This document shows, piece after piece, positions 44,242-64,000 of a stretch of DNA of 64,000 bases. This DNA comes from Gracilariopsis chorda (lineage: Eukaryota > Rhodophyta > Florideophyceae > Gracilariales > Gracilariaceae): the NCBI GenBank assembly GCA_003194525.1, contig NBIV01000158.1, positions 111,030 to 175,029 on the forward strand, read 5' to 3'. The position numbers were made by a program, and so were the translations under genes. Numbering within the stretch: position 1 is the stretch's first letter; each line of letters opens with the position of its first letter. The notes beneath the pieces are model-generated. The model worked only from the letters and a program-made list of their open reading frames with translations, had not been told where the DNA came from and made no database searches.

Positions 44242-45248
44242 ATGATGCGCGTTGGACGCTTTTCACTGCTGCTTATTGTCTTACTCGCAGCAATTCTATT
44301 CACTGCTATCAATGGTAGGTTGCGATTGCTTTTCCAGATGAAATCAAGTCCATATGCTAACACAATAAGGATATCTTATCTTGAACCTTTCAAATAGCTG
44401 AAGCGCATGACTCCGCCCATGAGGTGGACGTTGACGAAAGCGGTGGTGACGATACCGAGAGTGAGCGCATTGCTAGAGAGATTGAAGAAGAAGCTGCAGC
44501 TGCCGTGGGGGAAGCAGCGGAGGAGGAGGAAGATGACGATGCTGATGCGCTCGACGAGGACGCTGATATCGCTCGCTATGATCCAGAGAGACGTCACCCT
44601 CTATCCGATCTTCCACCTCCTTCAAGTGATGTCAGCGTTGGGCATGCCTTCCTTACAAAGTTTTCTGAAACAAAGAGCAAGGCCAGTGACATCGTTGTTA
44701 CTCTGGGCGAAACAATCAAAACTGTCATTGCATTCGCAAATCATGGTCGCGGATCGTATCATGTTTGGGGGGTCATGGGTTCTCTCAACATGAATGACAA
44801 CTTCAAAATCCATGTGCAGAATTTCACCTACGCTATGATCAACAAGACAGTGGAGCCTCAGGAAGAGCTCAGCTTTTCGTATGCTTTCACTCCCCACGAA
44901 AGGTTAGACATTCGTCCATTTCAGCTTGCTTTAACTGCTTTTTATGAAGCCCAGGGTTCAACTGGAAATGCGATTCGAGGATATTCCACTACCTTCTTCA
45001 ATGCCACGGTGGCCACGGAGCCTGGTCTTCAGACCATGAGTAATGGGCTATTCATGCTTATTGTTGTGGTATTGATCGGGGCTGCGATAGGCGGCTTCTT
45101 CGCGTTCAAGAAAATGGAGGCTGTTAAGACCGCAAAGACCGAAATGGGTACGGAGGATTCATCAAAGAATGAATGGCTCGAAGAGCACGAAGCGATGGTT
45201 AAGACCGGAGGCGGACGCGCTAGGAGTAGAGCTGCTGCAAAGAGATAG
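44242..45248 (+). CDS. SSR1: Translocon-associated protein alpha (TRAP-alpha / SSR1), two exons
   Basis: Exon 1 is 44242-44314 and exon 2 is 44398-45248, joined across an 83-nt intron (44315-44397) that starts GTAGGT, contains GCTAAC near 44356 and ends AAATAG. Exon 1 encodes MMRVGRFSLLLIVLLAAILF..., a signal peptide, and joins in phase 1 to AEAHDSAHEVDVDE. An acidic stretch (EEEAAAAVGEAAEEEEDDDADALDED) follows, then the lumenal TRAP-alpha domain (VGHAFLTKFSE..., MGSLNMNDNFKIHVQNFTYAM, SFSYAFTPHERLDIRPFQLALTAFYEAQG), one transmembrane helix (about GLFMLIVVVLIGAAIGGFFAF) and a basic cytosolic tail. TRAP sits next to Sec61 in the ER and helps translocation. The product is about 308 residues. 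NFTYA is a potential N-glycosylation site. Confidence 0.92.
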
Positions 45249-46065: not shown

Positions 46066-46833
46066 TCACTTTTTTGTCGCTTTCTTATTCTTCTTCAGAC
46101 GAGACTTAACTCTTAAGCTTTGAGTGTCCTTTGTTTTCGCCTTAGACCCGAAAAAGGCGTCAATGCCCTTCTGTTTCATAACTTTTCCTCTGTACTTGTC
46201 TGCAAGATCCGGTGCCATTCTCCACCAACTGAAACCGGTTCCATCTACGAGCCCTTTCACTGCATCAGTGGGAGATGCATCCATTCTGAGCCATTCTTCG
46301 ACTTGCTTTTCACTCCTGAGAAATACAGGTTGTCTATTATGTAACCACTCAAGCTCCGAAGCGGCTTTTTCCGTAAGCACCACAAACTTGGACGTAGCTT
46401 GTCCATTCTCATTTTCAGTCCTGTAAATTCCCGCCATGTACGCAACAGACACGTCTTCAAAAGCAGCCTTAGGAATGCTTCGAATAAGAAACGGAGTTTT
46501 TGAAGGCTTTCCCGGGCCAGCTTCCTTTTGCCACTCGTAGAAACCAGTGACGGGGATCGCACAGCGTCGGCGCATTTGAGGGCGAAATGTTGGTAGCTCC
46601 AACACAGTTTCTTTACGGGCGTTTATGAGAGGAGAGCCGCCACGGGAAAATCCCCACTTCATCAGCTGAAAAGTGGGGTTAGAGGTTTCGTGTACAAGCA
46701 CTGGGGCCTGTGTAGTGGGGCGAACTTGCTGTCGGGGTTTGTGCTGTTTGGCGTGGTTGGGATGCCAAGTTGCATTTGGATGAGTAGCTGCTAAAGCCGC
46801 AGCTTCAACGTTAAGCTGATAACGGCCGCACAT
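46066..46833 (-). CDS. HMCES: SRAP-domain abasic-site sensor (HMCES/YedK family) with C-terminal PIP box
   Basis: A 255-residue product beginning MCGRY. After Met removal Cys2 becomes the N-terminal nucleophile that forms a thiazolidine crosslink with abasic sites in single-stranded DNA. Other catalytic residues are in place: Asn71 in LINARKET, Glu100 in TGFYEWQK and His165 in LHNRQPVFL. The family protects replication forks by shielding abasic sites. QKGIDAFF at 221-228 fits the PCNA-interacting consensus QxxIxxFF exactly and is followed by a very basic tail (KSRLKKNKKATKK), consistent with recruitment to forks and nuclear import. The length and domain are complete. The next feature upstream is the transposon at 47.07 kb. 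Confidence 0.93.
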   Translation of the reverse strand: MCGRYQLNVEAAALAATHPNATWHPNHAKQHKPRQQVRPTTQAPVLVHETSNPTFQLMKWGFSRGGSPLINARKETVLELPTFRPQMRRRCAIPVTGFYEWQKEAGPGKPSKTPFLIRSIPKAAFEDVSVAYMAGIYRTENENGQATSKFVVLTEKAASELEWLHNRQPVFLRSEKQVEEWLRMDASPTDAVKGLVDGTGFSWWRMAPDLADKYRGKVMKQKGIDAFFGSKAKTKDTQSLRVKSRLKKNKKATKK

Positions 46834-47066
46834 TTGAAGAGACGTTTTCGCGTCTGGAGAGTAGACTTAGCTGGGTAAGTCTTCGCGGTGGTATCTGAAG
46901 CTCAATCGTCTCGCGGATTCTGGATGATCACCGGAGCCAGAAGGTTGCGCTCCGGCAGCTAGCGGTCAGAAAGGCTTAATTTGGAACACATTCATGACCT
47001 TAAAATGTGTAAAATTTTGTGTAGCTTTTGGTACGCCAGCATCGATGGTAAACGACGAAGGGGTTA

Positions 47067-47234: not shown

Positions 47235-49130
47235 ATGCCGCTTTCGATGCGAAAACAGACCGCAGGTAGAAAGGCAGCGTACGCCAAGCGTCTGAGTGTA
47301 AAACAACAACCCCAAAATGCAATCAAAGAGCTGAAAAAGAAAACCCCAGTTCCCATTATCATGAAGCAGACCAACATCAGCAGAACCACACTTTATCGTC
47401 TTTGAAATGCGATGTGGAACAAAACACCTGACGTATATCGAAAACTTCTTGACCCAACTGTACATTTTGCTGGACGCAGACCGGTTTTGACCGAAGAAGA
47501 AGAGAAAATGATCGTTGAGCGTACAATATTTGCCGCAGAACGCGGCTTTAATTATGGCGATTTCGAACTAAAAGCCCTAATGGCACAAGTAGCGAACGAT
47601 GGCCGCAAAGGATACGCCAAAATTATGCCATCCGATTATGCCCTCCGGTCCTTTCGTGCAAGGAACCGTACCCTGACTTGCCGTAAAACAGAAAACATCG
47701 ACACCAAGAGATTGTTAGCGCAGAACCCATACCACATCAAGACATTAGTAGAGATAATTGAAATACTTGAGCAATCGATGCCGGATATATTCTTGGACCC
47801 CAACCGCATCTGGAATCTTGATGAAACCAGTATTTGCGCAAAGTTTGGTAGAAGATATCGAGGATACAACGCGTCCAATAGTAGACACGGAGGTTACAGA
47901 ACCAAACTCAAGGACAATGGCAAGCATCTAACCGCTGAAGTTATGATATCAGCATCTGGTCACATTGCTCCACTTTTCCTTATTGCTCAAGGAAAAAAAG
48001 TAATGCCATCTTGGACGACGCCACTTCCTCAAGACGTTGTTAAGAACCTCTCACCCGAATACAAATGGATGTCACTCAAGAACTGGCTTCCAGATGACTC
48101 ACATATATGTTGCAGTGCAAAAGGGTCCGTTACCAAAGCTCTATTACCGTCAGTTATCGAACATCTCAACAATTTCATACGCAAGTTTGTCCCAAAATCA
48201 GTGAAGGTGCTGCTGTTGTTGGATGGTCATAGCTCTCGCAAGGGTGTAGAATGGCTGAACGAAGCCGATGAATGCAACATCGAAATAATCCAGCTTCCTG
48301 CCAATACTTCAGACATATTGCAGCCCTGTGATGACAGAGTCAACAAGGTTTTCTCGGAGAACGTACGAAATGTTCTGGATATATTCTTGTACTCGAATCA
48401 GTTCACCCACGCAAACATTGCTATGAAAATCAAACTCGCCGCTGCCGCGTTTCGTGCGTTGAATTCCAGGCATGCCATAGAAAGTTTCGACCGCTGTGGA
48501 TTGTGGCCGTTAAACAAAGAGCGAATAATGAGCTTTGCGAAAGACAGCGTTCTCTCAAAGATTGTGAAATCGTTTCCCGAAACCCCTATTCGTGTAAGTC
48601 CTCGGGTATCTGACGGCATCATTCATAGCAGGCTAAAGAAGATTGTTAGCGAAGAACAGAATCCCACGACCTGCTTGCGACGCGTTGAGACGTTGTTGCA
48701 GCAGAATTCGTCAGCAAATTCGCTGATGTGGCGACCACAACCCGTAATACTTCCGACAGAAGCTGTAAGAGCAAGAAAGGAAGGTGGTGCTCCAGCGCAG
48801 TGGTTGACAGAAAAAGAGAACAGTTGTCCTAACTCCGAGCGAAAACATAGCGGTGAAAACCCAGTTCAAAATAGACAAGTGCATTTCGACCAGGAAGAAA
48901 AGAGAGGGCAGATTAGTAGGTCAAAGGCAATGGGTGACCGTGGTTTGAGTCAAACGGTTGTGGTGACTGACAATGTGAATGTCATGAGGTGGAAATGCTT
49001 CGATGATGTGCCGATCAAGTGGTGGAGGTATTGGCGCGAGAAACGCAGAGCTGCTGGTGGCGAGGCGAAAGAAGTCGAACGACGCTCAGCAGCAGCGACG
49101 GGGCTGTTGCGTCTACGGCACATGCGCTAG
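47235..49130 (+). pseudogene. Pogo/Jerky-type DDE transposase interrupted by one in-frame stop
   Basis: Reading starts at MPLSMRKQTAGRKAAYAKR (47235) and runs through a helix-turn-helix-like segment ending ISRTTLYRL, where a TGA stands at 47403-47405. The same frame then continues from 47412 for 572 residues. That part has GRRPVLTEEEEKMIVER (second HTH-like domain), then a DDE_1 catalytic core: D137 in WNLDETS, D271 in LLLLDGHSS and D307 in SDILQPCDD, a DD35D spacing typical of pogo. The tail is basic. Only this single stop breaks the gene, so it is either a very recent nonsense change, a read-through codon or a sequence error. Confidence 0.88.
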
Positions 49131-49291: not shown

Positions 49292-49916
49292 TAATTTGAG
49301 ACGAAGATGAGCTTGGACTTTTTGTCGTCTCTTAGAGCATGTCTATTCGTCGTGGTAAATTTGTATTTGTGGTGCAATGCCCCAAAGGGGAAAAACACCG
49401 AAAGACGTTCGGGATCTTCCTCTCACGAGGTGAACCCAGTTGGGTAGAGCCCTCCCAGAGGTGTCACGGCGAAGCCGGTTTGTAAGACCAGGGACACCTG
49501 TCACGACTTGCGCAGGGAGGTGAAGGCGAAGAATCGGTATCCGCGTGAGCGGGATGTGGTCCTCGGTAGAGGTATGTTTCCACGTAAGTGGGGGTGTGTG
49601 AGCGGATGCGCACACGAGGGCCGCGGATAGCGGGAGGTGCTACCCTAAAAAGGGGAAAGAGGAAGGACGAAGTGGGTCGCGAGAGCGACGAGTAGATACG
49701 GCAATGCCGGTGGACAGGACTCCCTATACAGGGCGAAACACCAATATGATTGGAACAATTAGTACTCCCAAGGATGGGCTTCTTTAGATGTGCAAGGGGG
49801 GTGAACTTCCGTACACTACGGTGCTTCCCTCCAAGGAGGAGTTGAGAACACGCGGAGGCGGTAAAGCTCAGAGCCAATTCCCCAGGTTGGGGTCCCTTGT
49901 TGGGGAAGGTTTACTG

Positions 49917-49941
49917 GTGCGACGGAAGTGCGCCGTCGCAC
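49917..49941. repeat. Hairpin in LTR B (9-bp arms, 7-nt loop)
   Basis: GTGCGACGG (49917-49925) pairs with CCGTCGCAC (49933-49941). LTR A has an equally strong hairpin of different sequence at the corresponding place, before the AT-rich block. Confidence 0.8.
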
Positions 49942-50060
49942 TAAGTACTAGCTTCCCAGAAATGGGTGTGAAAATAATAAATAAAATTAACTAAAATACT
50001 CCACATTCCGTGGCATCATCCACTACTGTGGCCAACCGCCAATTGACCCAAAACCGTGTC

Positions 50061-50070
50061 CCACGTGTCC
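50061..50070. promoter_or_regulatory. G-box in LTR B
   Basis: CCACGTGTCC, containing the palindrome CACGTG, is conserved as a 10-mer in LTR A (56054-56063). It lies between the AT-rich block and the start of the antisense ORF, so it may belong to a promoter for that ORF. Confidence 0.5.
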
Positions 50071-50174
50071 ATACCCACCATTGTGGGGCGTAGTTCATAT
50101 ACACACTACACAACCGATAATATCGGGAAAGCGTTCAAGTACCCAGAATCCCTCCCTGAGGGCGTTGCACTTCA

Positions 50175-50190
50175 TATCCCCCCCCTTAAG
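50175..50190 (-). other. Polypurine tract of element B
   Basis: On the minus strand CTTAAGGGGGGGGATA immediately precedes the 3' LTR, the position where plus-strand DNA synthesis is primed. Confidence 0.75.
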
Positions 50191-50231: not shown

Positions 50232-52019
50232 ATGGGTGATAAAAGCGCGTGCTTTGTCTCCGGTTCTCCGGTAAATCCCTCTGCACCAGAGTCATCAAGC
50301 ACACAAACGACAACAACAGCCACCCTCCAAAAGGGAAAAATGAACGACGACAACAATATCAACAACAACAGCCAACCGCCGAGACTTCTCGGGCGATACA
50401 CCACCGGTTTCCGGTCAGTTCCCCTGCCTCAGGGCGATCGAAATCCGATACAACCGGGGAATATGGCTGCTGCAGCCGACCATCCCTTCGCACTACCACC
50501 TTCGGTGGTGTCCTCCGGAACCACTCCGGTGTCCAACTGGCCAACCTACAACACCCTGGTGGGGCTCAACCCGATGAATCGGAATCACGCGTCGCGCCTG
50601 CGCCTTGCCCCGTGGTTTCACCCGGTCGCTGTCCTCAATGAGGGATTGGTCACCGCTTATGCGGATGGTTCAGACACCCTTCCGGGGGATCTGCCCAGAG
50701 CAGTCACCACATCGTGGGATTGGCGTCACCGGATTGCGATTCCGCGTCACCACCTCCGAAGAAACTCGGGCGAGACCGTCGCTGCGGCGCAGACCGCGTT
50801 GACGCGGATGGCGTACCAACGGCAGAGCCGGGCTCCATTCGATGTACCGGTCCCACCGGAGTTTGGCTTCGACATTAGCTACTTCCGCACTCGCGGGGAG
50901 ATTGGGTACGGCGAGAACCTGTTCCGCCTCGAGACCCTCGCTTGGAGGAATTTCCCCGCAGCGCGGCAAGAGGCCCTTTGCTGGGAGCGACCGATTATTC
51001 GGGCGGAGTTCAGGTACCTTCCCCGGCAATACCGGTCCAACTTTCTCCAAAACTTCATCCGCTACGAGCGGCGTTGGCGATCCCGATTCGGGTACTTTAT
51101 CCCGTATCAGAACGTGGAGATAGAGCGGATTGCGCCGCCTCACCGGCTAGGTCGGTATGTAGCACTCCCCGAGTGGTGGCGCTTCCATGAAGCCTGCCGG
51201 GGGTGCTACATAGAACTCCCGCCGGTACTTACGTACCTCGGTTCGCTGCTCATGCAGGATCCCCGGTCGGGGTTGTGGTCCGTAGTGGTTACGGAGTGGG
51301 CGGCCCGCAGTGCGGCTTATATCCTCAACGAGGCGTACGACCAGTATCGTCTCTGGTTCCTTCAACCGCGTGTGCGGGCAGCGATCCGAAACCTGGATCT
51401 TCGCATCCCCCTTGGGGGCCAGGCCAACAATGAAGAGGTCCTCCAATTACTTGGGTACATCGACAGCGTTAGCTGGAGTGAGGTCCCGCTGGAGCAAAGC
51501 GGTCGTCTGGATGGCGGCAGCGGTAACACCGGTGGTCCGGGACTCGGTAGAAACACCGCCCTTGCGGGGGATTTTATCTACTTCGACCCCTGGGAGTTCC
51601 GGGAAATTTCCTCCGAGGAGGCGCGAGAGCTTCGCGATACGCCCCGGCATGTGCCGGAAGACCACCCGGTGGGGTACGTCGATTCTGACGACTGCTACCG
51701 CGCATACGGCGGGGATGACCCAATGGTCGATAACGAACCGGAAGAACCCGGGGAGATGGACGTAGAGGAAACCGGCGCTAGCGCGGAAGCTTTCCCAGAG
51801 GGGGTATCTCCGGCCGAGCCGGCTGCTGACCCTTCAACGGCAAGTGCCGGACCTTCTATCCCCAGCGGGGTGACGGCGAATGAAAACGAAATCATCGCAC
51901 GTTTCCTCCGGGGTGCCGGTCTTAGCGCTGCCGAGGTATCGGGGGATGTCACCACCATGGCGGACGCGTTGGCCTACCGCCTTGCTGGGGGTTACGCCCC
52001 GGACGATGGGGGTGAGTGA
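50232..52019 (+). CDS. Antisense accessory ORF of element B, unknown family
   Basis: A 595-residue frame on the strand opposite to pol, between the 3' LTR and the 3' end of pol. It has no stop or frameshift. Residues 1-75 are Ser/Thr/Asn-rich. From about 110 to 440 it is dense in Trp, Tyr, Arg and Phe and aligns along its length with the second antisense protein at 56298. Shared blocks include APWFHP, RAEFRYL.R, RSRFG..PYQN.E.ER, GRY..LP.WW, RGC..E.PP.L.Y.GS, EWAAR.AA..L.E.YD..RLW, R.LDL.IPLG..AN and DPMVD. The C-terminus is acidic and Pro/Ala-rich. I recognise no known domain. Expression could start in the adjoining LTR. It is not gag, protease, RT, integrase or a clear env: no signal peptide or membrane segment is seen. 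Confidence 0.75.
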   Translation: MGDKSACFVSGSPVNPSAPESSSTQTTTTATLQKGKMNDDNNINNNSQPPRLLGRYTTGFRSVPLPQGDRNPIQPGNMAAAADHPFALPPSVVSSGTTPVSNWPTYNTLVGLNPMNRNHASRLRLAPWFHPVAVLNEGLVTAYADGSDTLPGDLPRAVTTSWDWRHRIAIPRHHLRRNSGETVAAAQTALTRMAYQRQSRAPFDVPVPPEFGFDISYFRTRGEIGYGENLFRLETLAWRNFPAARQEALCWERPIIRAEFRYLPRQYRSNFLQNFIRYERRWRSRFGYFIPYQNVEIERIAPPHRLGRYVALPEWWRFHEACRGCYIELPPVLTYLGSLLMQDPRSGLWSVVVTEWAARSAAYILNEAYDQYRLWFLQPRVRAAIRNLDLRIPLGGQANNEEVLQLLGYIDSVSWSEVPLEQSGRLDGGSGNTGGPGLGRNTALAGDFIYFDPWEFREISSEEARELRDTPRHVPEDHPVGYVDSDDCYRAYGGDDPMVDNEPEEPGEMDVEETGASAEAFPEGVSPAEPAADPSTASAGPSIPSGVTANENEIIARFLRGAGLSAAEVSGDVTTMADALAYRLAGGYAPDDGGE

Positions 52020-52210
52020 AACCTCTAGTCCAGTTTCCTGGTTCTTCTTTCCCTGGCTATGCCAGTTAGTGTAGTGTAGTATTGTGGGGAGCTAGCTGCT
52101 CCCTTGAATAAACTTTCCCGTTTAGAACGGTGCTTCTCGGTTGAGTTCCCCGTCTTCGACGGACCTTGTCTTGTTATCCTTTCCTTTCGCTCTCCGCTCG
52201 CGCGGCAACG
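52020..52210. terminator. Convergent end region of antisense ORF and pol in element B
   Basis: The 190 bp between the two facing stops contains a strong hairpin (GGGAGC, TAGCT loop, GCTCCC at about 52088-52104) followed by GAATAAAC, a possible + strand polyadenylation signal. It probably separates the two opposing transcripts. Confidence 0.45.
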
Positions 52211-55200
52211 TTACCCAACTTGGGCATTTACCAGCGTGGCTGGAGCTGCAGTTCCCGTTTGACGGTGGTATCGCACGACCTGCGACCGTGGGAGGTGTTC
52301 CATTGGCTCCCACGTATCCCCACTGGGGTCGTACCCGTACCAGCGGACGCGGTATTGTAGAATACCATCCTGGTCCCAGGTGTGTCCGACAAGTCGGTCT
52401 ACTACGAACTCTCGTTCGTAGACCTGCCGGCCGTGCCGGGTGGTGGTTGTACTTCCCTGCGGGGGCTGCCCGCTGTGCGGTATAATGTCCCTTAGCAGGG
52501 TGTTCGGCGATAACTCCGACGTTGCCGTGCGCTGTCCTAGTGGCCGCTGCTCATGCGGGAAAATATCGCTCAAGAGGGTGTGTGGTGTCACGGTTTTCCC
52601 CGGCAAGTCATTCCCCATTGGGGTGTCGTTGTTCCCGTCTTCACGGTAGGCCGGGCGAACCGCCAGTCGGCGGGGGACTTGGGCTCCGCCTTCGCGGTTG
52701 AGCTCACGAACCGCGAGTTTGCGGGAAGATGACCGCTCCTGCGGGATCGGCATTTCCACAATCCCCTTGGGGGTCCCGTGCGACACGGTGATTGGGTGGC
52801 AAACCGCCTCCCTGCCAGGCGCACGAGCGCTCTGCACCATACGTTCCGGCGACGCCGTGGTGTCCCCGGCTACTGACGGGTTGCCTGGGGCTAACTCCGG
52901 TACACCGGTATTTTGGTCAAAATTCCCCTTCGGGGGGTTCTGGGCAGGTGCCGATGACACCCTTTTCAGGGGAATTGCCGCTGAGCGCAGTGCACCATCT
53001 CCGTGAGGAGGAGCAGCGTCCAGTACGACAGGTTTCGAGCGTGCGATGGCGCGCGTTATTCCCGAGTTCCTCGGTTCTTCGCCGCAGCGATGCGGGGGTT
53101 GGCGCAAATTATTCCCCGTAGCGGGGGCTTTGATTCCGTCAACGACGGGAGGCGTTTCCGGTGCTTGCGAGCCAGGGCTTAAAGCTTCGACTGCAGCTTG
53201 GCCGCCTTTTTCCCCAAGAGGGGTGTGGGTATTCCCCTGTGAGGCCGGCGTATCTGGGCACCCCTTCTCCGCAGGGCGCGGGTCTGATCGACCTGATTGA
53301 ACCGCTTCCGCGGGGACTTCCGCCAACGGCGGCTTCGAGGCATCGGGCGATTGCCTTTCCGCTGCTGCGGTATTGGAGTGAGGCTTCTCGTTTTCCCGTG
53401 ACAAACGGTGTATTTGCCGCTTTTGCGGGGCCTGCGCGTCTGGTTCCTGTTGCACGGCACTGCCCGGGAACGGGGGATTAGTGTCGCGTGACATATTCCG
53501 TGCTCCACGAGTGTTCCGTATGTTACGGTGTGTTTCCCGTTGCGACGGTGATATCGTTCCTCGAAAACGAGTGTTCTCCTCCCCCTCCTTAGACGGAGCG
53601 GCGGGATAAGGGATAACATTCCCAGCCTGGCGGGTATAGATGCGCGCCAGTGGGGCAGACGTGGTAGAGGCGGGCGCTGAGGGGCCCGAATTACCCGTCT
53701 GAGCCGGTGAGTCCGACAGAGTCGGTAGGTCTGAGAGTCCCCGGCTGGGGTGTGGTAGTACCGTAGGTCTAGTACTCCCGGATTGTTCCGGTGTAGCGGA
53801 GTCCGTAGAAACGGGGTTGCCTGGATCCAGGACTACCTCTGACGAGGGAGGAGGGGCGAGGACAACACGATCACGGGAAATCCGTTCGTGCGTGTCCCCC
53901 ATCTCTACCACGACAGTGTCGGTGTTAACAGAGATCACCTTGAAGGGTCCATCCGCCACAGGCGAGAGTTTGTGACGCTTCTCCCGTTCCGGGTTGTAGT
54001 ATTCCTTCCTGATGAAGACGTAGTTATTTGCCCGAGTCGGGGACGGTTTTCCTCGCAAGCGAGCGTCAAAATCCCGCTTGTAAGCGGCTTGGGCCCGTGC
54101 CATAGACTTCCGCGCAGCGGGGACCAGCTTGGAAAGCCATTGCTTCCATTGCTGCCGGTAGATACCCACAGATGGGAAATTGTCCAAGGTAGCTTGGGGT
54201 TCCAGCGCCACAGGCGGGGGTGTTCTAGATAGAACTAACTCGAATGGCGAAACTCCGGTAGTCCGGTGTACCTGCGTATTGTACGCGTAGGTTACCGCAT
54301 CAGCGTAGAGATCCCAATTCGTTGGGTGGTCAGCGACGTAGGAACGTAACGCCGCGAGTAACGTCCGGTTGAACCGTTCAACTTGCCCATTACACTGGGG
54401 GTGGTAGGTAGTCGTGAACAAGTTCTTGAGATCCAGGATGCGACAAACATCCTGGAAGAACTTGCTCACGAACTGCTTCCCGTTGTCAGAGAGCACCTCT
54501 ACAGGGGGACCGTAGACAAAAATCCAGTGTTTCACCAGAGCCTGGGCCACCGTGAGAGCGGTTATCCTCCGAAGAGGGACAGTCCGTACCAGCTTAGAAA
54601 AGCGGTCGGTAATGACAAGTAGAAACTTGTTTCCACGTTTCGTGGTGAGTAATGGTCCGAGAATATCGATTGCGATAAACTCGAGCGGCGCCCTTGCGGG
54701 GAATAGTTTCATCTTCTTCGCATTTTTGCGAAGTTTGACGCGATTCTTCGCGCATTCGCTACAAAACCGCACAGTTGCGTAGCAATCCACCGCCATTGCG
54801 GGCCAATAGAAATCCCTTCGCAGGGTTAGGTAGAGTTTCCTCCCACCTGGGTGACCTCCAATGGGGGCGTAGTGTGATAGATGTAATACCCGCGATTGCA
54901 GGGAATGTGGTACCACAATCTGTGGACGGGCTTCGACCTTTCTTACGAGGTAGCCTTTGTCGTTTACCCCGAAAGGGAGATCTTCACCACCGTTGATACG
55001 GGCACGAATTCTCGTACAGAATGGGTCGCCGAATTGTTCTCGGATCATTTCTTCCGGTGATACCGGTACAAAGTTTCCCGGTAACGGGTTCTCAGATTTA
55101 TCTCGCGATGCGAGTAGTTCGTCAAAATCAGCATCCTCGTCCCAGGTTTCTGGCCTAGCCTCGACGGCATATTCCGGATCATCCGGGTCTATAGCCATGA

Positions 55201-55334
55201 AGCATGGGACTTCATCATCCTCTGTTGGGAGTGCTTCCCCACTTGTGGGTAACCGCGATAAAGCGTCGGCCTGGGTGTTCTGCGCACCCTTTTTATAAAT
55301 GACTTGAAAGTCATATTCCGCGAGGCGGAGTCTC
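52211..55334 (-). pseudogene. Element B pol, 3' part: RNase H tail, integrase, linker, chromodomain; truncated by element A
   Basis: The frame is open for about 1040 codons from the junction. It begins in the last part of RNase H (RLRLAEYDFQVIYKKG, then NTQADALSRL). The integrase has a zinc finger (HLSHYAPIGGHPG... FCSECAKN) and core Asp, Asp, Glu in AIDILGPL, LSDNGKQF and NGQVERFNRT. After the YYNPEREKRHKLSP beta-rich domain come about 400 residues of low-complexity Pro/Arg/Ser linker and a C-terminal chromodomain (REFVVDRLVGHTW...LQYRVRWYGYDPSGDTWEPMEHL), which marks a chromovirus and would guide integration to chromatin. Reverse transcriptase, protease and gag are missing here because element A is inserted at 55334/55335. 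They should continue beyond element A, outside the window. Upstream of the junction the same frame stays open through LTR A by chance. Confidence 0.88.
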
Positions 55335-55955
55335 TGTGGTGCAATCCCGGTGTGGGAAAGGCACCCAAGGCAGCTCGAAGCCTTGCTCTCTTGGAGAGGT
55401 AGGCCCAGCTGGGTAGAGCCCTCCGTGTCCCGTATGACGGGTGTAACTCCGTCGGGAGCCTGGATGTACCTCGGAGGTTTAGGGGTTAGAACGGGTCGGA
55501 ACCACGGCTGGTCCGGAAGTAGCCTGCGAACAGGGGAACAAAAGAGGGAAAGGGACCACCCGACGGGGGCGTGCGGAAAGCGGGAACAGACCCCGGAGGG
55601 GGGTGCCGATACACACACACGAACACGCACCGCGCGGCGGTTAGGGGATATGAGGGGAAGAGATGGTCTCACGGTCTCACGACACACGTCGGTAATATCA
55701 ATACCCAAAACTGGGGCGGAGATAGGGCCTGTACGGACGGTCACACGACAACAATGAATACCACGAGTGGTCACAACCCACTGGGTACGACGAGCACGGT
55801 CTCCTCGGTGGTGCGAGTCGGGTGAAACTATCGGGCAAGCGGTGTACCTCCGCGAGGAGCTAGACACTTCGCATGGCGAATAGAGTCAGAGCCGAACTCT
55901 TGTTACTTTTCTTGGTGAGCTCGCCGTCGTGCGGCCGACGCTCAAGTACTAGCTC

Positions 55956-55980
55956 AGTGCACTACAGTAGGTAGTGCACT
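55956..55980. repeat. Hairpin in LTR A (10-bp arms, 5-nt loop)
   Basis: AGTGCACTAC (55956-55965) pairs perfectly with GTAGTGCACT (55971-55980). It is placed like the hairpin in LTR B, just before the AT-rich block, but built from other bases. Confidence 0.85.
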
Positions 55981-56053
55981 AGCCTAAGTAAAATTAACCC
56001 CTAAACTACACTAAAATAAGTAGCCGTTTTGGGCCTCCTGGCCGGGGCTGTAG

Positions 56054-56063
56054 CCACGTGTCC
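56054..56063. promoter_or_regulatory. G-box in LTR A
   Basis: CCACGTGTCC, identical to the motif in LTR B. The two LTRs are otherwise poorly alignable here. Confidence 0.5.
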
Positions 56064-56247
56064 ACCACCCTTGCCAGGCAAGTACCACAAAATATGAATG
56101 TTCCCATAACCACCCTGGGTAACCCAACCGCTAATTAGCCCGGTAAACGGGGGCTAAAATTCATGCATCCCGCTTCATCGCTCGCACCGAGTACACCTCA
56201 GATATGAGTTTCACCATCGCCCGTACGCGGGAATGTATTGCACTACA

Positions 56248-56263
56248 CATCCCCCTCCTTAAG
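56248..56263 (-). other. Polypurine tract of element A
   Basis: On the minus strand CTTAAGGAGGGGGATG directly before the 3' LTR. Same CTTAAGG core as in element B. Confidence 0.75.
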
Positions 56264-56297
56264 GGCCGAAAACGAACGTGAGTATACGCGTGAGGAG

Positions 56298-58139
56298 ATG
56301 AGGCGCGAGGGTATAAATAGTCCCGACAAGGGAATTGCCGAGATACCGGTCCCCCGTACCAACACGGTTACAACTGATCAACCCTCAGTACCTTCTTCAA
56401 CAGACTCTGCGCCCCTCTCTACTATGACCAACACTCCGTTTTCGAACAACCCGCCTGCGGGCGCCCCGCAGGGGACTTCCGCGAGCGGACAACCTTCCTT
56501 CGCGACGCCGGGGTCGCGGGTTCGTCACCCAACCTCTGGGTTCCTCTCCTTGCCTCTGCCTGGAGGATCGTCTCATGTTCCAACCTTGGATGCCTCGGAT
56601 GCCGCGAGTATCGCCGCCTGTAATTCCGCTCAAGCGATACCGATCACTGCGACCGCCGCCGGCTGGGTGTCACAATCGACACTTTGGGCCCGCAATCCCC
56701 GGGAAGACGCTCTACTCTTTTGGCGTGCGCCCTGGTTCCACCCCACATGGGTTTCCGACTCGGACCTCATCGACTCCTATGTGGAGGAGGGCGAGCTCCC
56801 AGGGGGACTAGGCCGGGATTTGGTCGACTCCTTCGACTGGAGGACGCGTATCGCGGTAGAGCCACAGTTCCTCGCACGGAAGCGCACCAGATATGGTTTC
56901 GAGACGCTGAATGAAGCCTGTGCCGGGATGGCCAAGGTCGCCTACGACCGTCTTGCCCGCGCGAGTTATCCGGATGAGCTGATACCAACGGAATACAGCT
57001 TTGACCTCTCGCGGTACCGTACCTACGGTGAAGTCTCATACTGCGAGAACCTTGCTGCCTACCAGCCATCTACACCGTTCCGGTCCACTCCAATAGAAGC
57101 CGGGATGCTCCTCTGGAGGCGCCCAATTCTGCGTGCAGAGTTCCGATATCTTCGTCGTCCGAATCATCGCGGATCCTTCTTCGACCGACTCCGGTTTGAG
57201 CGAAAGGCGCGCTCCCGCTTCGGGTTCCTGGTACCATACCAAAATCTCGAGGTCGAGAGGCTCCGTCCATCCGCGATGCGCGGCCGGTATGCACCTCTTC
57301 CCCATTGGTGGAGCAGGTTCGAAGTCCCGAGGGGATGCTTTGCGGAGATGCCTCCGTGCCTCAGCTACATCGGTTCACGATTAATCAACAATCCGGATTC
57401 CGGTTACTGGACTCTCTTCCTCGCCGAATGGGCTGCTCGCGTTGCCGCATTTCTCCTCTGGGAGGTGTACGACAAGAACCGTCTGTGGTACATTCCTCCT
57501 CACCTACGCCAGGTTATCCGCCGATTGGATCTCTATATCCCTCTGGGATCCGAAGCCAATGTGGATGAGCTTCAGTGCCTTCTGAACACCATCGATATGG
57601 TTAACTGGGATACAGTCCCCGTCTCCAACGTCCCTGACGGTGAGCCTTCCAGGCATGATCGCTCTCCAGGCCGGAGAAATCCAAACGCTGGCAACTTCGT
57701 CTTCTATGACCCTTGGGAGGTATCCGTGACTTCACGGGCTCACGCGCTAGCGTTACGCGATGTACCACGCTCCGTTCCGCGAGGCCACCCGGTTGGGTTC
57801 ATGTTTTCCGATGAATGGCACGGTTCCTACGAGGATGATCCAATGGTGGATGACGACCCCGATGAGGTGGAGGAGGCCGTAGCCCCGGTAACGGCGATGG
57901 TCAACGATCTCGACGGATCCGGCCAGCATGTGGCTGCTCCAGATGGCTGGAATATGGCCGCCAGTGCGGCTGCTTCTCCGTCTACCGCATCTCCGGTCCC
58001 CGTGGACCCTCAGGCCGTTGCCCTCAGGGCTCACCTCCAGTCCATTGGAGTGGTTGCGCCTTCCAACCTCACCAGCGTGAGCGAGTTATTGGCTTTCGCG
58101 TCTGCGAACTACCAACCGCCAACGAGCGGCTCATCCTAA
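56298..58139 (+). CDS. Antisense accessory ORF of element A, unknown family
   Basis: About 613 residues, on the strand opposite to the pol of element A and intact although that pol is broken. It is a clear homologue of the antisense protein at 50232: WRAPWFHP, DWRTRIA, YRTYGEVSYCENL, RRPILRAEFRYLRR, ARSRFGFLVPYQNLEVERL, GRYAPLPHWW, RGCFAEMPPCLSYIGS, EWAARVAAFLLWEVYD and RLDLYIPLGSEAN in the same order. The C-terminal acidic block contains DDPMVDDDPDEVEE. The N-terminal 120 residues are Pro/Ser/Thr-rich and poorly conserved. I used the first ATG (56298); the Met at 56424 is an alternative. No transmembrane segment, signal peptide or zinc motif is seen. A function in silencing control, nuclear transport or particle assembly is conceivable but unsupported. 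Confidence 0.75.
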   Translation: MRREGINSPDKGIAEIPVPRTNTVTTDQPSVPSSTDSAPLSTMTNTPFSNNPPAGAPQGTSASGQPSFATPGSRVRHPTSGFLSLPLPGGSSHVPTLDASDAASIAACNSAQAIPITATAAGWVSQSTLWARNPREDALLFWRAPWFHPTWVSDSDLIDSYVEEGELPGGLGRDLVDSFDWRTRIAVEPQFLARKRTRYGFETLNEACAGMAKVAYDRLARASYPDELIPTEYSFDLSRYRTYGEVSYCENLAAYQPSTPFRSTPIEAGMLLWRRPILRAEFRYLRRPNHRGSFFDRLRFERKARSRFGFLVPYQNLEVERLRPSAMRGRYAPLPHWWSRFEVPRGCFAEMPPCLSYIGSRLINNPDSGYWTLFLAEWAARVAAFLLWEVYDKNRLWYIPPHLRQVIRRLDLYIPLGSEANVDELQCLLNTIDMVNWDTVPVSNVPDGEPSRHDRSPGRRNPNAGNFVFYDPWEVSVTSRAHALALRDVPRSVPRGHPVGFMFSDEWHGSYEDDPMVDDDPDEVEEAVAPVTAMVNDLDGSGQHVAAPDGWNMAASAAASPSTASPVPVDPQAVALRAHLQSIGVVAPSNLTSVSELLAFASANYQPPTSGSS

Positions 58140-58475
58140 GTCAGGATCCTGGACCGTGGCACGCACACCTGATATAGGTTAGCGCTTAACGCTCCATAGC
58201 TTGTGGTAAACGACTTCCTTCTTCTATATCCGTATGTCCGGACTCTTCTTTTTCTTCTTCATAGCATCTTCATGCTGGACCGCTAAGCGGTATTCTTCAT
58301 TAAACCGTTACTTCGGTCGGACCGCTAGGCGGTGTGACGTACAATGACCATTGGTTTCCCTATGCAGTCCATTACTTCGTGTAACCTTCTGTAGCCAGAT
58401 CTCTTCCTGTGTCCTCTTCTCTTCGGAGACTTCTCTTCCGTCTTCGGAATCTTCTGCATAGTGCAGTGTATCGTC
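58140..58475. terminator. Convergent end region of antisense ORF and pol in element A, with repeated hairpins
   Basis: Two near-identical hairpin motifs, GGACCGCTAAGCGGT and GGACCGCTAGGCGGTG, lie at about 58276-58290 and 58318-58333 in a pyrimidine-rich region between the facing stops. They may be end or processing signals for the opposing transcripts. Confidence 0.4.
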
Positions 58476-61400
58476 CTACCCAACCTGGGCCATGTCCAAA
58501 GTGGATGGGAGTGGGAACCGCGTCCGGCGGTGGTAGGTTATCACCTTGGAACGAGGAAGGTGCTGAATGGGCTCCCATGTGCCCTCTTCCGGGGGGTATC
58601 CGTACCATCGGATTTGGTAAAACCACACTCCTTTGGAGTCCAGAACATGATCCACGATGTGGTCAACGACAAACTCCTGGTCGTACGTAGCCGGCTCCTG
58701 ACCCGTCATGGCAGGGCTTAAGGGGAGAACCCTGTGAGGGGACTTGCCTGAAATTGGCGCGACCCTGCGGGCAAACTCAGTTTTCCTCGACGCTGCGAGT
58801 GCTGGGACTTGATACCGCATTGCGGTCTTTCCGCTTCCTAATCCTCTCCTTGTGGGGGGGGCCTTCCGTTCTAACCGGATTCCCCTATTGACTCGCAGCT
58901 CGCGAGCTCTTCTCCCACGCGACCCGTGCAACTCTGGTGAGTTTGACCGTTCACGGTGAGGGAGGCGGTTCACTACGGTTCCGACGCCAGGAGGCGGATT
59001 GCCATGCATCACACACTGTGATTGGCTGGCCGCTGGCGGCAAGTGTCGCGCGCGGTCTTTCCACGACGCGGGTCTTGACTGTACTCCTGACGTCGGCCGG
59101 CGGTATGTACGTGTACACCTTTCCACGGTTTGGAATTTCGGGCTTCGTCCGCGTGACAGTGGCGTCACAGTGTCCATTTGTGGGGCTCTGCGGTAACGCA
59201 CGCAGTGTCAACCACACTCTCCGTGTCCGCGGTTGCTTTTCAGCTCACCACGAAACTGGTTATGACCGAGGTTGTATGTGCTCCGTGCTCGAAAATATCA
59301 TTCGCCACATTAGTGACCACACCGAGTCCGGTTCCCTACTTCCTCCTTCGCTACCCAGCGACTCGCTCGACAGGAGTGCATCCGGGTCCGCGGAGACGGC
59401 CTTCTCGCTTCGCGATGCGTTCAACTCCTCCCTGCTCCGGTGGTGCTCATCCGACGATGCCGTATTCCCGATGCGGGCTCGTCCACTGTTCCCAACCTTC
59501 TCCCGTGCCGGGCTTACCACGCGTTCCGTGACGGCAGTACCCTTGCTCTGAAGAGCCTCGGTTAGCGCAGAGTGCGGCGCGAGGGAACTCGCTCGCGAAG
59601 CCGTATGAAACAGGACACCATCCGACGCCGGAGCTTCCTTCCGCGATGGCGCGATCGATTCCCGTCCCTCCCCCTCCTTAGGTGAGAGGGCGGTGGGTTC
59701 AGGCTGAAGGACCTCCGCGGGCGGAGTAACGGTTAGGCGTTTGGGGTCAAGCGTGCGTTGCACGATACGCGCGGCGCGCCCAACCGGTTGATCGGCAATC
59801 GGAAGATCCGAGAGTCCCCGTTCCGGGTGCGGTAAGACGGGTGGGCGGGACGGAAGCAGATTATCCGTTGGCCGAGTTACGAGGTCATCCTCCGGGATTG
59901 TCACGAGCGGTGATGAGCCCTCAGGGGGCGCAGGCGCGTGGGCTACGCGGTCGCGTGAGACGCGTTCGAACTGGTTATCGATGTCCAGTACGACTGTGTC
60001 GTCGGCGACGGAAACCACCCGATAGGGTCCATTCACTATCGGTGACAACTTGTGGCGCTTTTCCTTTTCGGGATTATAATATTCCTTTCGCAGGAAGACA
60101 GAATCCCCTTCCGAGACCTGGGGTATCGGGGTACGAATCTTCGCGTCGAAGTTCTGTTTGTATGCCTCCTGGGCTTTTTCCATAGCCTTTCGGGCGGTAG
60201 GGACCATGTTCTTCAACCATTCCTTCCAGGAATCTCGATATAACCTTGGTGAAGGGTACCCCGAGACGTTCGGTTGCGCTTCAATAGCCATGGGTGGCGG
60301 AATCCGAGACAGGACCAGCTCAAATGGAGCGAGGGTCGTGACCCGGTGTACCTGGGTGTTGTACGCGTACGTAATAGCGTCCGTGTACAAGTCCCATTCC
60401 ATGGGGTGATCCGCGAAATACGCGCGCAGTGCGTTGAGCATAGTACGATTGAATCGTTCCACTTGTCCGTTACACTGCGGGTGGTAGGTGGTAGTAAACA
60501 TATTCTTGATTCCCAAGATTCTACATACGTCCTGAAAGAACTTTGAGGTAAATTGAGATCCGTTGTCGGAGAGTAGATGTACCGGCGGGCCGTAAGTAAA
60601 GACCCAGTGGGTTACGAACGCACGCGCAACCACGTCCGCGGTAATACGTTTAAGGAGTACTGTTCTCACCAACTTTGAGAAGCGGTCAGTAATGACGAGA
60701 AGATACTTGTAACCACGTTTGGTTTTGACAAGCTCGCCCAAGATATCAATAGCGACATATTCGAGTGGCGCCCGTGCCGGGAATAGTGTTAACTTCTTCG
60801 AGTACTTCCGAAGTTTCACATTATTCTTCGCACATTCCACGCACGAGCGGCGAACTGCATAGCAGTCAAATGCCATAGCAGGCCAATAGAAGTCCCTGCG
60901 AAGAGTCAGGTATAGTTTCCTCCCGCCGGGATGTGCGCCCAACTTCGCGTAATGCGATAGATGCAAGACGCGCTGCTGCAGCGTGTGAGGTACAACGATC
61001 TGTGGGGCCCGTGTCAGCGACCTGACTAGGTAGCCTCGATCGTTCACCGCAAAGGGTATCTGTGCACCCCCGTTAAGACGGGCACGAATCTGGGCACAGA
61101 AAGGATCCTGCTGTTGTTCACGGATCATTTCCTCAGAGAATATGGGGACAACCTGGTCATCCGGAGGATCCGTAGGGTTTGCAGCCAGAATATCATCACA
61201 GATGTCATCCCCATTCACGTCTGGGTCGTCTTCTTCCGTTCCCTCCGGGGATTGTGCCATGAAACATGGTATTTCCAGATCGTCGACCGGTTCGGTTTCC
61301 GCTGATGTTCCTAAGCGCGATAGGGCGTCAGCCTGAGTATTCAGGGATCCCTTCTTGTAGAGGACATCAAATGTAAATTCCGAGAGTCGGAGACGCCAAC

Positions 61401-62530
61401 GCATGAGGCGGCCCGACGGTTCTCGAATTTCGAGTAGCCAACGGAGAGCCGAGTGATCGGTGTGAACCTTGAAATGGTTACCCATAAGGTATGGGCGAAG
61501 CGTTGCCAACGCCCAAACAACAGCAAGACACTCCTTCTCGGACACCGAGTAGTTGCGCTCGTGAACGTTCAACGAACGTGACCAATATCCGATCGGATGT
61601 CTTTGTCCTTCTTCCGTGACTTGGAACAACGCACAACCCACCTGGTGGGCACTTGAGTCAGTATCCACTTCGAAGGGTAAGTCCGGGTGCGGTAAGGCCA
61701 GAACTGGCGGGGACGTTACAGCATCGACAAGAGACGAGAATGCTGACGACTCAGCCTCGTCAAAAACGTCCAGTTCGGTGGGTTGTCCTTTCCGGAGGAG
61801 TGCGTTAAGCGGTGCTGACAAGTCGGCGAAGTTCGGGACGAATCGGCGATATACATTGCAAAGTCCTAGGAAGGATCGAAGCTCCGTTTGATTAGTCGGA
61901 TGTTTCGCCTCTCGAAGTGATTTCACTCTTGCTTCATCGATTGAAAGCTGTCCGGGGCGGATGATGTGCCCCAGATATTTTACCGAATCGGCGCAGAACT
62001 CACACTTTCCCAGCTTCAGGGTGATGCCCGCGTTGCGGAGCACTGTCAAGACTTCCCGGACATGGGACAGGTGATCGTCCAAGTTATTGGAGAACACTAT
62101 AATGTCGTCCAAGTATACCAGACAGCTGGTCCATTTGAACCTCGCCAAGAGGATATCGATTGCCCGTTGGAATGTAGCTGGGGCATTCGTTTAGTCCAAA
62201 CGGCATTCGCTTAAAGCGATATAGTCCTTGATGGCACACAAACGCGGTCTTATCACGATCTTCCTTCCTAATAGGGACCTGCCAGTATCCCGAATTGGCA
62301 TCAAGGGTAGTGAACACCGTTGCGCTCCCCAGGGAGTCAATGTACTCGTCCATTCGTGGAATCGGATAGACGTCCTTGACAGTAACCGCATTCAGGCGGC
62401 GGTAATCCACACAGAAACGCCATGATCCATCGGCTTTCGGAACAAGGACAACAGGAGAAGCCCAAGGGGATTGTGCTGCTTCGATAACTCCAGCTCGCAG
62501 CATCTTCTCCACCTGAGATTTCTCTTCCCC
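58476..62530 (-). pseudogene. Element A pol: reverse transcriptase, RNase H, integrase, chromodomain, with frameshifts
   Basis: The RT palm begins VEKMLRAGVIEAAQSPWASP (about 62510) with WRFCVDYRRLN and FTTLDANSGYWQV. The frame shifts at about 62190, where one extra A in CTAAACG breaks the FGL.NAP motif. It then continues with YLDDIIVFSN (catalytic Asp pair), RNase H (VDTDSSAHQVGCAL, YSVSEKECLAVVWA, HTDHSALRWLL), integrase (HLSHYAKLGAHPG, CVECAKN, AIDILGELV, LSDNGSQF, NGQVERFNRT) and a long polar linker to 59260. Another frame change near 59.2-59.3 kb separates the C-terminal chromodomain (QEFVVDHIVDHVLD...FYQIRWYGYPPEEGTWEPIQHL, to 58476). Homology with element B is high over integrase and chromodomain. 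Chromovirus lineage of Ty3/gypsy. Confidence 0.88.
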
Positions 62531-64000
62531 CTTGCTTTAGGGCCTGCCCGATACGGGTGCTGTGCAATAGGCCGTGTATCCGGCAACAAATCAATCCGAT
62601 GTTCGGTTACCCCTATCGTCCCCAGGGAACCGTCCCACATGGCGGTAAAGTCCCTGAGCATGTCACGAAACTTCTCACGATGAGATTCATTAATGTGATC
62701 CAGGTCCAACTTATCCAAAGCCTGTTCTGGGTCTAACGCAGTATCTGCCGATGCTGAAGTCGTGCTCTTCTGAGCTTCTTCGACAGTCGAATCTGAACTT
62801 TCCCGGGCGGGATCCAACGGAACGAACGGGACCTCCTCCCCCTCCTTAGGGTCTTGTATTCCGAGAACGTCGGATATCGGAATCTTTGTAGGAAGGATAG
62901 CCAACGGATGCGGAAGCATGTTGCCCAGGACCTGGTTTTTAACCAACCACTGAGTGGTAGTTCCGAGGTTAGCAACGAGAACCTTAAAGGGTTTGTCCGG
63001 CTCGACGGATACGATCCCATTTGCTAATGCGAGACGGCGCTGTTCGTAGAGCGAGGGGAGCGGTTTGAACAACCTGCAACCCGTGGTGTTTGGATGTTAC
63101 TGAGACCCCACACCTGAGATTCCTTCGGGATCGAAACTGGTTCCGCGACGCGAATCTTCGTAGATGCTCGATCCACATTGGACGCTTCCTGAGCAGCAGG
63201 TAAAGGTACCCGTTTACGGGAGGCGTGTCGCAAGGGCTTCCGTACAATCGGGATGGTCGAACCGTTGGCCAATTCCACGGATCTGGAGCGAGGGCGGATA
63301 GCTTCCACGAAGCGGTCACAGAAATCACAACCGAGGATGACCGGTGCAGCAAGAGAATCGCATACGATGAAGTCCAACTTCACCACGTAGGTGCCTAGTC
63401 TGAGTACCAGAGGAATTGTTCCAAGAGTCTGGAGCGGATTGTTATTAGCGTCCGCCAGATCCAGACTTGGACCAATGCGAATGCATTTCCGCATGGCGGG
63501 TTGGAATAATCCCGATATTGATCAGGTTCGGAGCGGCACCTGTATCCAGGACAGATAACTGACGAACCATGAACTGGTTTAGAGAGACGAGGTCACTATA
63601 AACTTTATTAGTTCCTCTTGGCCATTACCAAAACTCGATCCGGGGATGCGGAGGTTACGGGACCGTATCCACGGACGACGCAGAGCCACTAAGTGGTCCG
63701 AGCTCACGTCTTCTTGAGCCAGTTTCCTCGTAAGGATTTTGGCAGGGGAGCGAAGCGGTGGCGCCTCAGGCGTCTTCAACTTTGGCTTGGAAGACACCCC
63801 TCCCGTGGGGAGACTCCCAAGATTAGTTTTTCGGGACCGAATCGACCGCTGGGTGCGGCTGAGTCCGTTCCGAAAGGTTAGGGTTGTTACCGTTCGCGGT
63901 TTTCGCGGCTTCTCGAGCTTGAGCATTGTGGACCGCAGCCTTTTGCGTCTTCATACGAATTACTCGGGACACGAGCCTTATGCTCCGGTGGGAGATTCTC
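62531..64000 (-). pseudogene. Element A gag-protease remnant and RT approach region, frameshifted, cut by the window edge
   Basis: The retropepsin active site is at about 63530-63555 (QLSVLDTGAAPNLI). The rest of the protease lies in another frame from 63494 (RKCIRIGPSLDLADANNNPLQTLG..., VILGCDFCDRF). Then comes the pre-RT segment to about 62530 (ALDKLDLDHINESHREKFRDML, HRIDLLPDTRPIAQHPYRAGP), where a G5 run carries a further frame change. Right of 63600 a basic, low-complexity reading (VIRMKTQKAAVHNAQAREAAKTANGNN) may be the end of gag; a TAA blocks the protease frame there. No zinc knuckle, primer site or 5' LTR is inside the window. Confidence 0.75.

Follow-up and report, generated by a model that had tools for sequence, protein, structure and literature searches.

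Accessory genes on the strand opposite to pol are known from several groups of long terminal repeat (LTR) retrotransposons. The plant genes termed aORF-3R are read from the strand opposite to pol, in the interval that separates pol from the 3' LTR; they occur in most copies and are conserved at the protein level, and examples are gene23 of maize Grande, rice RIRE2, ORF4 of Silene Retand and PvRetro13 of Phaseolus (PMC7264820; PMC11963269). In the Retand lineage, which does not belong to the chromoviruses, an antisense TRP28 protein is present in 97% of clusters (PMC11963269). A fungal element, Boty of Botrytis cinerea, has an antisense aORF before its 3' LTR (cited in PMC7264820), APH-2 of HTLV-2 (PMC11963269) and an HTLV antisense promoter (PMC7264820) have been described, and bdelloid rotifer LTR elements carry several types of ORF3, some of them recognisable (env-like, GDSL, DEDDy) (PMC5408684). 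What such antisense accessory genes do for LTR elements has yet to be established (PMC7264820). Here we describe an antisense gene in chromoviruses of the red alga Gracilariopsis chorda, starting from a 64,000-nucleotide stretch of contig NBIV01000158.1 (the window), and conclude that a clade of red-algal chromoviruses has it as a genuine third gene.

The red-algal gene is like the plant aORF-3R genes in site, orientation, presence in most copies and protein conservation. It differs from that of Retand, whose protein usually has Transposase_28 (PF04195), in belonging to chromodomain-bearing elements of a red alga and in having no credible Pfam domain; the two kinds of protein are set apart by domain content and published descriptions, not by direct alignment. 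Boty likewise has an antisense open reading frame (ORF) before the 3' LTR outside plants, a likeness of position alone. The bdelloid elements form a clade with added third genes, as here, but several of their ORF3 types are recognisable, whereas no credible Pfam model matches the red-algal gene. Among the titles and abstract openings listed in literature searches that leave out most subscription journals, none reports an antisense gene of red-algal chromoviruses, and the available parts of PMC12477816, PMC5408684, PMC8282616, PMC6317226 and PMC5970526 do not describe it. The locus extends the antisense accessory arrangement to chromoviruses and to red algae, with a protein unrecognised by the searched libraries.

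An antisense gene in several chromovirus families

The window is the end of its contig and contains parts of two elements, A and B (Table 1). The genome has seven matches to the phycobilisome-linker family PF00427, for which only Synechococcus was positive among 14 control genomes, as would suit a red-algal host. The two antisense ORFs of about 600 codons proposed from the letters of this stretch (the sequence-only reading) are both present and intact on the + strand. Each is sited between pol and the 3' LTR, on the strand opposite to pol and converging on it, with its ATG 58 nt (A) or 51 nt (B) inside the LTR end. Their proteins are similar in ordered blocks over a wider span than the ~330 residues first claimed, 183 of 447 aligned columns being identical (41%; E 1e-102). 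The LTRs are, as had been said, largely unalignable, with best local matches of only 21 bases (E 3e-5) and 27 columns at 85%.

By their Pfam domains, all scoring over the cut-off, A and B are chromoviruses, that is, Ty3/gypsy elements with an integrase chromodomain: B has RVT_1, RT_RNaseH and rve in one frame and Chromo in the next, and A has rve and Chromo within one frame. Pol of A is open up to 55335 and is broken off there, where the 3' LTR of B begins, as expected if B is nested in A with its far side beyond the contig end. The sequence-only reading had taken pol of A to be frameshifted and had argued from an antisense ORF kept open in spite of this. That argument was wrong, since pol of A is one open frame in the window; it is pol of B that is broken up, into five overlapping or adjoining ORFs (58476-59207, 59260-62190, 62084-62536, 62392-63096 and 63024-63521).

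In this copy of B (58476-63521, - strand) the antisense ORF is nevertheless intact. Chromodomain frames beside B-type ORFs were short by eye (68-245 codons), with frames of up to 1875 codons in other families, and the chromodomain of B may lie in a separate frame family-wide. Another B copy (contig C74; read in separate pieces) has LTRs that are 99.67% identical, and its flanks show a 5-bp duplication of the target, CACTA. Where gag is expected, it carries a sense ORF of 689 codons in which a CCHC-like motif could be made out by eye and which has no Pfam match. As this ORF is separate from the antisense ORF and shows no similarity to it, we rejected the idea that the latter is a gag in disguise.

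In the whole genome (91.3 Mb, 1081 contigs) hand counts gave at least 75 matches to antisense ORF B (72 larger ones and three fragments) and at least 74 to ORF A. Among the matches listed, 47 of 56 full-length B copies and 60 of 74 A copies were without a stop (hand counts), figures that rest on best protein matches and so are biased toward intact copies. The shared motif RAEFRYL, searched as a degenerate 20-mer, occurred at 472 genome sites against none for the reversed control, with 21 codon spellings among 100 places listed. For each family, 29 other loci, again best protein matches, aligned to the window copy across the whole ORF and LTR (the outermost bin of LTR A in 27 of the 29), and among copies the ORF bins were mostly better conserved than the adjoining pol end.

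Two further families, C and D (pieces L062 and L063), were also read. From their likely ATG, 54 nt (C) and 67 nt (D) from the start of a polypurine-like tract of the other strand, the ORFs measure 560 and 620 codons; the open frame of D runs past the left end of the piece read. In both, a chromodomain frame could be seen by eye after the ORF and opposite to it, that of C matching the Pfam-recognised chromodomain of B. Pairwise protein identity among the four families was 0.34-0.49 over 509 gap-free codons, and a separate alignment put C and D at 33-40% identity to B. The earlier mention of two chromoviruses was correct in that both carry the gene and understated its range: the gene was read in four families, and the counts point to others. 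More than four probably exist because of the identity bands that the searches returned: among the matches listed for C, three rows at ≥93%, bands at ~62-70% and ~49-57% and rows at 37-40%, and among the 76 rows listed for D, 26 at ≥86%, 48 at 45-52% and two between.

The neighbourhood recurs as well. Using a chromodomain query from family C and counting a single geometry, an ORF at the given distance on the opposite or the same strand, we found that 90 of 150 listed chromodomain matches were immediately preceded, on the opposite strand, by the end of a listed antisense ORF, and none had a same-strand ORF at that distance. The motif list is complete for contigs C1-C46, and there 26 of the 32 chromodomain matches were paired in this way (hand count). 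Counted from the ORFs, among the matches listed, a listed chromodomain accompanied 57 of 72 B, 21 of 42 C-type and 4 of 74 A copies; the low A figure reflects incomplete chromodomain listing or loss. An Env-like ORF would stand in sense orientation, and this one has the opposite orientation in both window copies and in each of the 90 pairs. Like an aORF-3R gene, it lies in reverse orientation in the interval from pol to the 3' LTR, is present in most copies and is constrained at the protein level, if marginally in B.

Constraint on the frame and copies without it

Comparison of ORF A with ORF B, which had been proposed as a measure of selection, gave dS 2.83 and dN 0.63; synonymous sites are saturated, so this ratio was not relied on. 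Within families, for 30 loci of each, changes shared by at least two copies (inherited) were separated from single-copy changes, and the same changes were placed at random. Inherited changes in A were 22 synonymous and 13 nonsynonymous, a nonsynonymous-to-synonymous ratio (N/S) 0.27 of neutral that none of 500 permutations equalled, and in B 11 and 13, or 0.50 of neutral (p = 0.07). Single-copy changes lay closer to neutral (A, 0.78, p = 0.044; B, 0.68, p = 0.022), as expected of dead copies. Nine of ten control frames gave ≥0.94. By part of the protein, inherited N/S was 0.32 for the N-terminus, 0.23 for the core (p = 0.001) and 0.38 for the tail in A, and 0.65, 0.37 (p = 0.051) and 1.10 (four changes) in B; the C-terminus of pol gave 0.58 in A (p = 0.005) and 0.82 in B (p = 0.41).

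Purifying constraint on the antisense frame is well supported in A and suggestive in B, and is also supported, independently, by amino-acid conservation across the four families. Third codon positions were the most diverged in 6/6 family pairs, and 62-68% of the residues identical between families (Met and Trp left out) use a different codon. Selection on the protein, as the sequence-only reading had proposed, stands firmly for A, with the third-position pattern and the recurrent position and orientation behind it, and only marginally for B taken alone.

The expectation that other copies hold the ORF was borne out for most, but some A copies lack nearly the whole of it. We inspected two of the six unpaired places on C1-C46. 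The piece from C17 (L065, C17:23900-24400) aligns with LTR A and, within the ORF, with no more than its first 21 codons, and that from C42 (L066, C42:130560-131060) aligns with LTR A and with roughly the first six codons; in both the chromodomain is too near for a full antisense ORF. A 23-base word across the C17 break occurs at 24 genome sites with at most two mismatches (10 exact; control, 0). At three of these, on C17, C222 and C299, a chromodomain is listed, each 187 bases away, in open frames of 459, 1317 and 1875 codons, respectively; ORF presence was checked for three of the 24 sites. We read the break-word copies as one deletion lineage that multiplied, an ancestral gene-less form being less likely because the first codons remain. 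Since a form lacking the ORF multiplied, the gene is not strictly needed in cis, and the observations suggest, without proof, that it acts in trans.

The protein and candidate signals for its expression

Cut by hand at shared motifs (the N-terminus of D being shortened by the query), all four family proteins share one layout: a disorder-prone N-terminal part rich in P, S, T, G, Q, N, E and D, a basic core of 367-373 residues with an isoelectric point (pI) of 8.5-9.0, 11-12% Arg and ≤1.6% Lys, and an acidic tail of 107-140 residues (pI 4.05-4.59). Mean hydropathy was negative in every segment. The claim that the protein belongs to no known family holds across Pfam, NCBIfam, PHROGs and PDB chain sequences, none of which gave a credible match. 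Transposase_28 was not among the Pfam matches of any of the four proteins at E up to 10, a search whose filters drop most matches above ~0.1, and IMG/VR viral contigs and prokaryote genomes gave pattern matches and no confirmed relative. By these searches it is an unrecognised protein in a known kind of arrangement. Weak matches to DUF6220 (E 0.094) and TPR_10 (E 0.035), in one family member each, and to a spider-silk chain among PDB sequences (E 2.2) were dropped.

Transcription outward from the 3' LTR would fit the anatomy, with the ATG 51-67 nt inside the LTR end or tract and poly(A)-like signals in A, B and D. The hexamers in question lie in the gap between the antisense stop codon and the end of pol (Table 1; D has AATAAA there on the same strand as its ORF, by eye). 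Because copies of one family barely differ, these counts amount to four looks, not sixty. The G-box-like motif of both LTRs is a weak candidate signal because a word of this kind may turn up by chance in two LTRs of 800-900 bp and stands at unequal distances from the two ATGs; it and the poly(A)-like motifs are hints only.

Inside the first codons of ORF B lies TATAAATAG (56312-56320, + strand); if this were a TATA box, translation would begin at a Met further on. The gaps after the antisense ORFs (window 52020-52210 and 58140-58475; L062 1884-2030; L063 1988-2321) contain pyrimidine runs on the + strand, which read as purines on the sense strand (for example TTCTTTTTCTTCTT in B and D; by eye) and are perhaps a second polypurine tract.

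Role of the antisense gene and other features of the window

From the observed anatomy, conservation and constraint we infer how the gene would be transcribed, where its protein would be located and active, and what it would regulate. The element would consist of LTR, gag-like ORF, pol with chromodomain and a convergent gene on the opposite strand, its likely start codon ~50-70 nt inside the 3' LTR end beside a polypurine tract in A, B, C and D. An antisense promoter in the 3' LTR would drive an mRNA of the gene's own, ending in the short gap before pol, and the protein would act in trans, perhaps in the nucleus and probably on chromatin or nucleic acid, regulating the element's transcription or replication as proposed for the antisense proteins of plant Grande and Retand. 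Retroviral antisense proteins such as HTLV-1 HBZ, which are regulatory and are made from a transcript started in the 3' LTR, would work alike, but the red-algal protein has no bZIP or other Pfam match and we have no evidence of descent. By analogy with these systems, regulation in trans has in our judgement about an even chance of being correct. A bolder proposal, in which the proteins form a new superfamily serving as trans-acting master control or helper of the whole red-algal chromovirus clade, and the A-deletion lineage, having shed the gene but with long open pol frames, lives as satellites of copies that still produce the protein, seems to us rather doubtful.

Several observations weigh against a trans-acting regulatory gene expressed in this way. 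Sixty of the 150 listed chromodomain matches are without a listed convergent ORF, and A copies without nearly the whole ORF exist, one such form having multiplied. The test in B alone is marginal, for the whole ORF as for the core, and at 1.10 its acidic tail shows no reduction. Loci were chosen by protein score, which biases the single-copy ratios downward and also biases the intact-copy counts. Control frame -2 in A was low too, at 0.34 (p = 0.002); this frame has wobble positions in common with the antisense frame and is interrupted by 18 stops. Neither poly(A)-like hexamer was seen by eye in C, the antisense strand of the window A copy has no TATA-like box, and of the TATA-like boxes of B one is far upstream and one inside the ORF. 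A simple pattern search found no convincing nuclear localisation signal, the K/R cluster being absent in A and D.

Of the other explanations, a structural or replication component whose expression merely happens to be antisense (a particle protein, an RNA chaperone or a partner of the integrase or chromodomain) would suit the Arg-rich core, apt for nucleic-acid binding, the recurrent chromodomain neighbourhood and a constraint on the core that exceeds that on the pol C-terminus in A and is no weaker than it in B. We nevertheless consider it unlikely: the B copy on C74 has its sense ORF in the gag position, with the CCHC-like motif though without a Pfam match, antisense expression uncouples the protein from control of the gag-pol ratio, copies lacking the gene have spread, and PDB chain sequences and Pfam capsid models gave no credible match. 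Capture of a host or viral gene, once, by the elements' common ancestor and its retention for the element's benefit against the host, for example in counter-silencing, appears improbable to the same degree. The dissimilarity of antisense and gag-like ORFs agrees with such an origin, as does the compact single-exon form, followed in A, B and D by a poly(A)-like signal, but no homologue outside the elements was confirmed in IMG/VR contigs or prokaryote genomes, a search that did not extend to eukaryotic protein databases or other red-algal genomes.

The antisense RNA, through copy-number control of the double-stranded or small interfering RNA type, might be what matters and the ORF incidental; the convergent layout could yield overlapping transcripts, and control by antisense RNA is discussed for other elements (PMC7264820). 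Amino-acid conservation between families whose synonymous sites are saturated, and an N/S in A well under the neutral value, make this very unlikely. A frame left open by chance, or as a by-product of sense-strand coding constraint, could call on the low ratio of frame -2 in A. It is hardly tenable, as each sense-strand frame over both window copies holds 8-22 stops, 300 mononucleotide shuffles per region with any frame counted reached at most 297 (A) and 302 (B) stop-free codons against ~600 observed, and the ORF is kept in four families, which already contradicts such an origin.

With diverged families, hundreds of motif sites, strong constraint in A and a deletion lineage in one genome, the function of the antisense gene becomes testable by comparison; one question for such a comparison is whether gene-less copies depend on gene-bearing ones. 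The window also holds a transposase-like frame and two ordinary host genes, listed with the other features in Table 1.

Table 1. Coordinates of the antisense genes, their host elements and neighbouring features in the window
Feature	Position	Strand	Remarks
Antisense accessory ORF, element A	50232..52019	+	595 codons, ATG-TGA
Conserved Arg-rich basic core, A protein	50562..51677	+	~residues 111-482; pI 8.75, R 12.1%, no K
Antisense accessory ORF, element B	56298..58139	+	613 codons, ATG-TAA
Conserved Arg-rich basic core, B protein	56682..57800	+	~residues 129-501; pI 8.93, R 12.3%, K 1.1%
3' LTR, element A	49368..50174	-	~807 bp; TG...CA boundaries placed by analogy with B
Polypurine tract of A	50175..50189	-	Just upstream of antisense ORF; read from sequence
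3' part of pol, element A	52211..55334	-	RNase H-like end (by eye), integrase, chromodomain; one open frame
3' LTR, element B	55335..56247	-	~913 bp; outer end interrupts pol of A
Polypurine tract of B	56248..56264	-	Just upstream of antisense ORF; read from sequence
Chromodomain-bearing C-terminal pol frame, element B	58476..59207	-	Pfam
Reverse transcriptase (part), RNase H and integrase frame, element B	59260..62190	-	Pfam
G-box-like CACGTG in LTR A	50062..50067	.	~170 nt before ATG; CACGTGTCC in 29/30 A loci
G-box-like CACGTG in LTR B	56055..56060	.	243 nt before ATG; CACGTGTCC in 30/30 B loci
AATAAA, candidate poly(A) signal of antisense mRNA, A	52107..52112	+	In gap of 30/30 A loci on +, 0/30 on -
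ATTAAA, candidate poly(A) signal of antisense mRNA, B	58299..58304	+	In gap of 30/30 B loci on +, 0/30 on -
DDE_1 transposase-like frame	47406-49130	+	574 codons, beside element A
TRAP alpha subunit, ordinary host gene	44385-45248	+	
SRAP-domain protein, ordinary host gene	46066-46866	-

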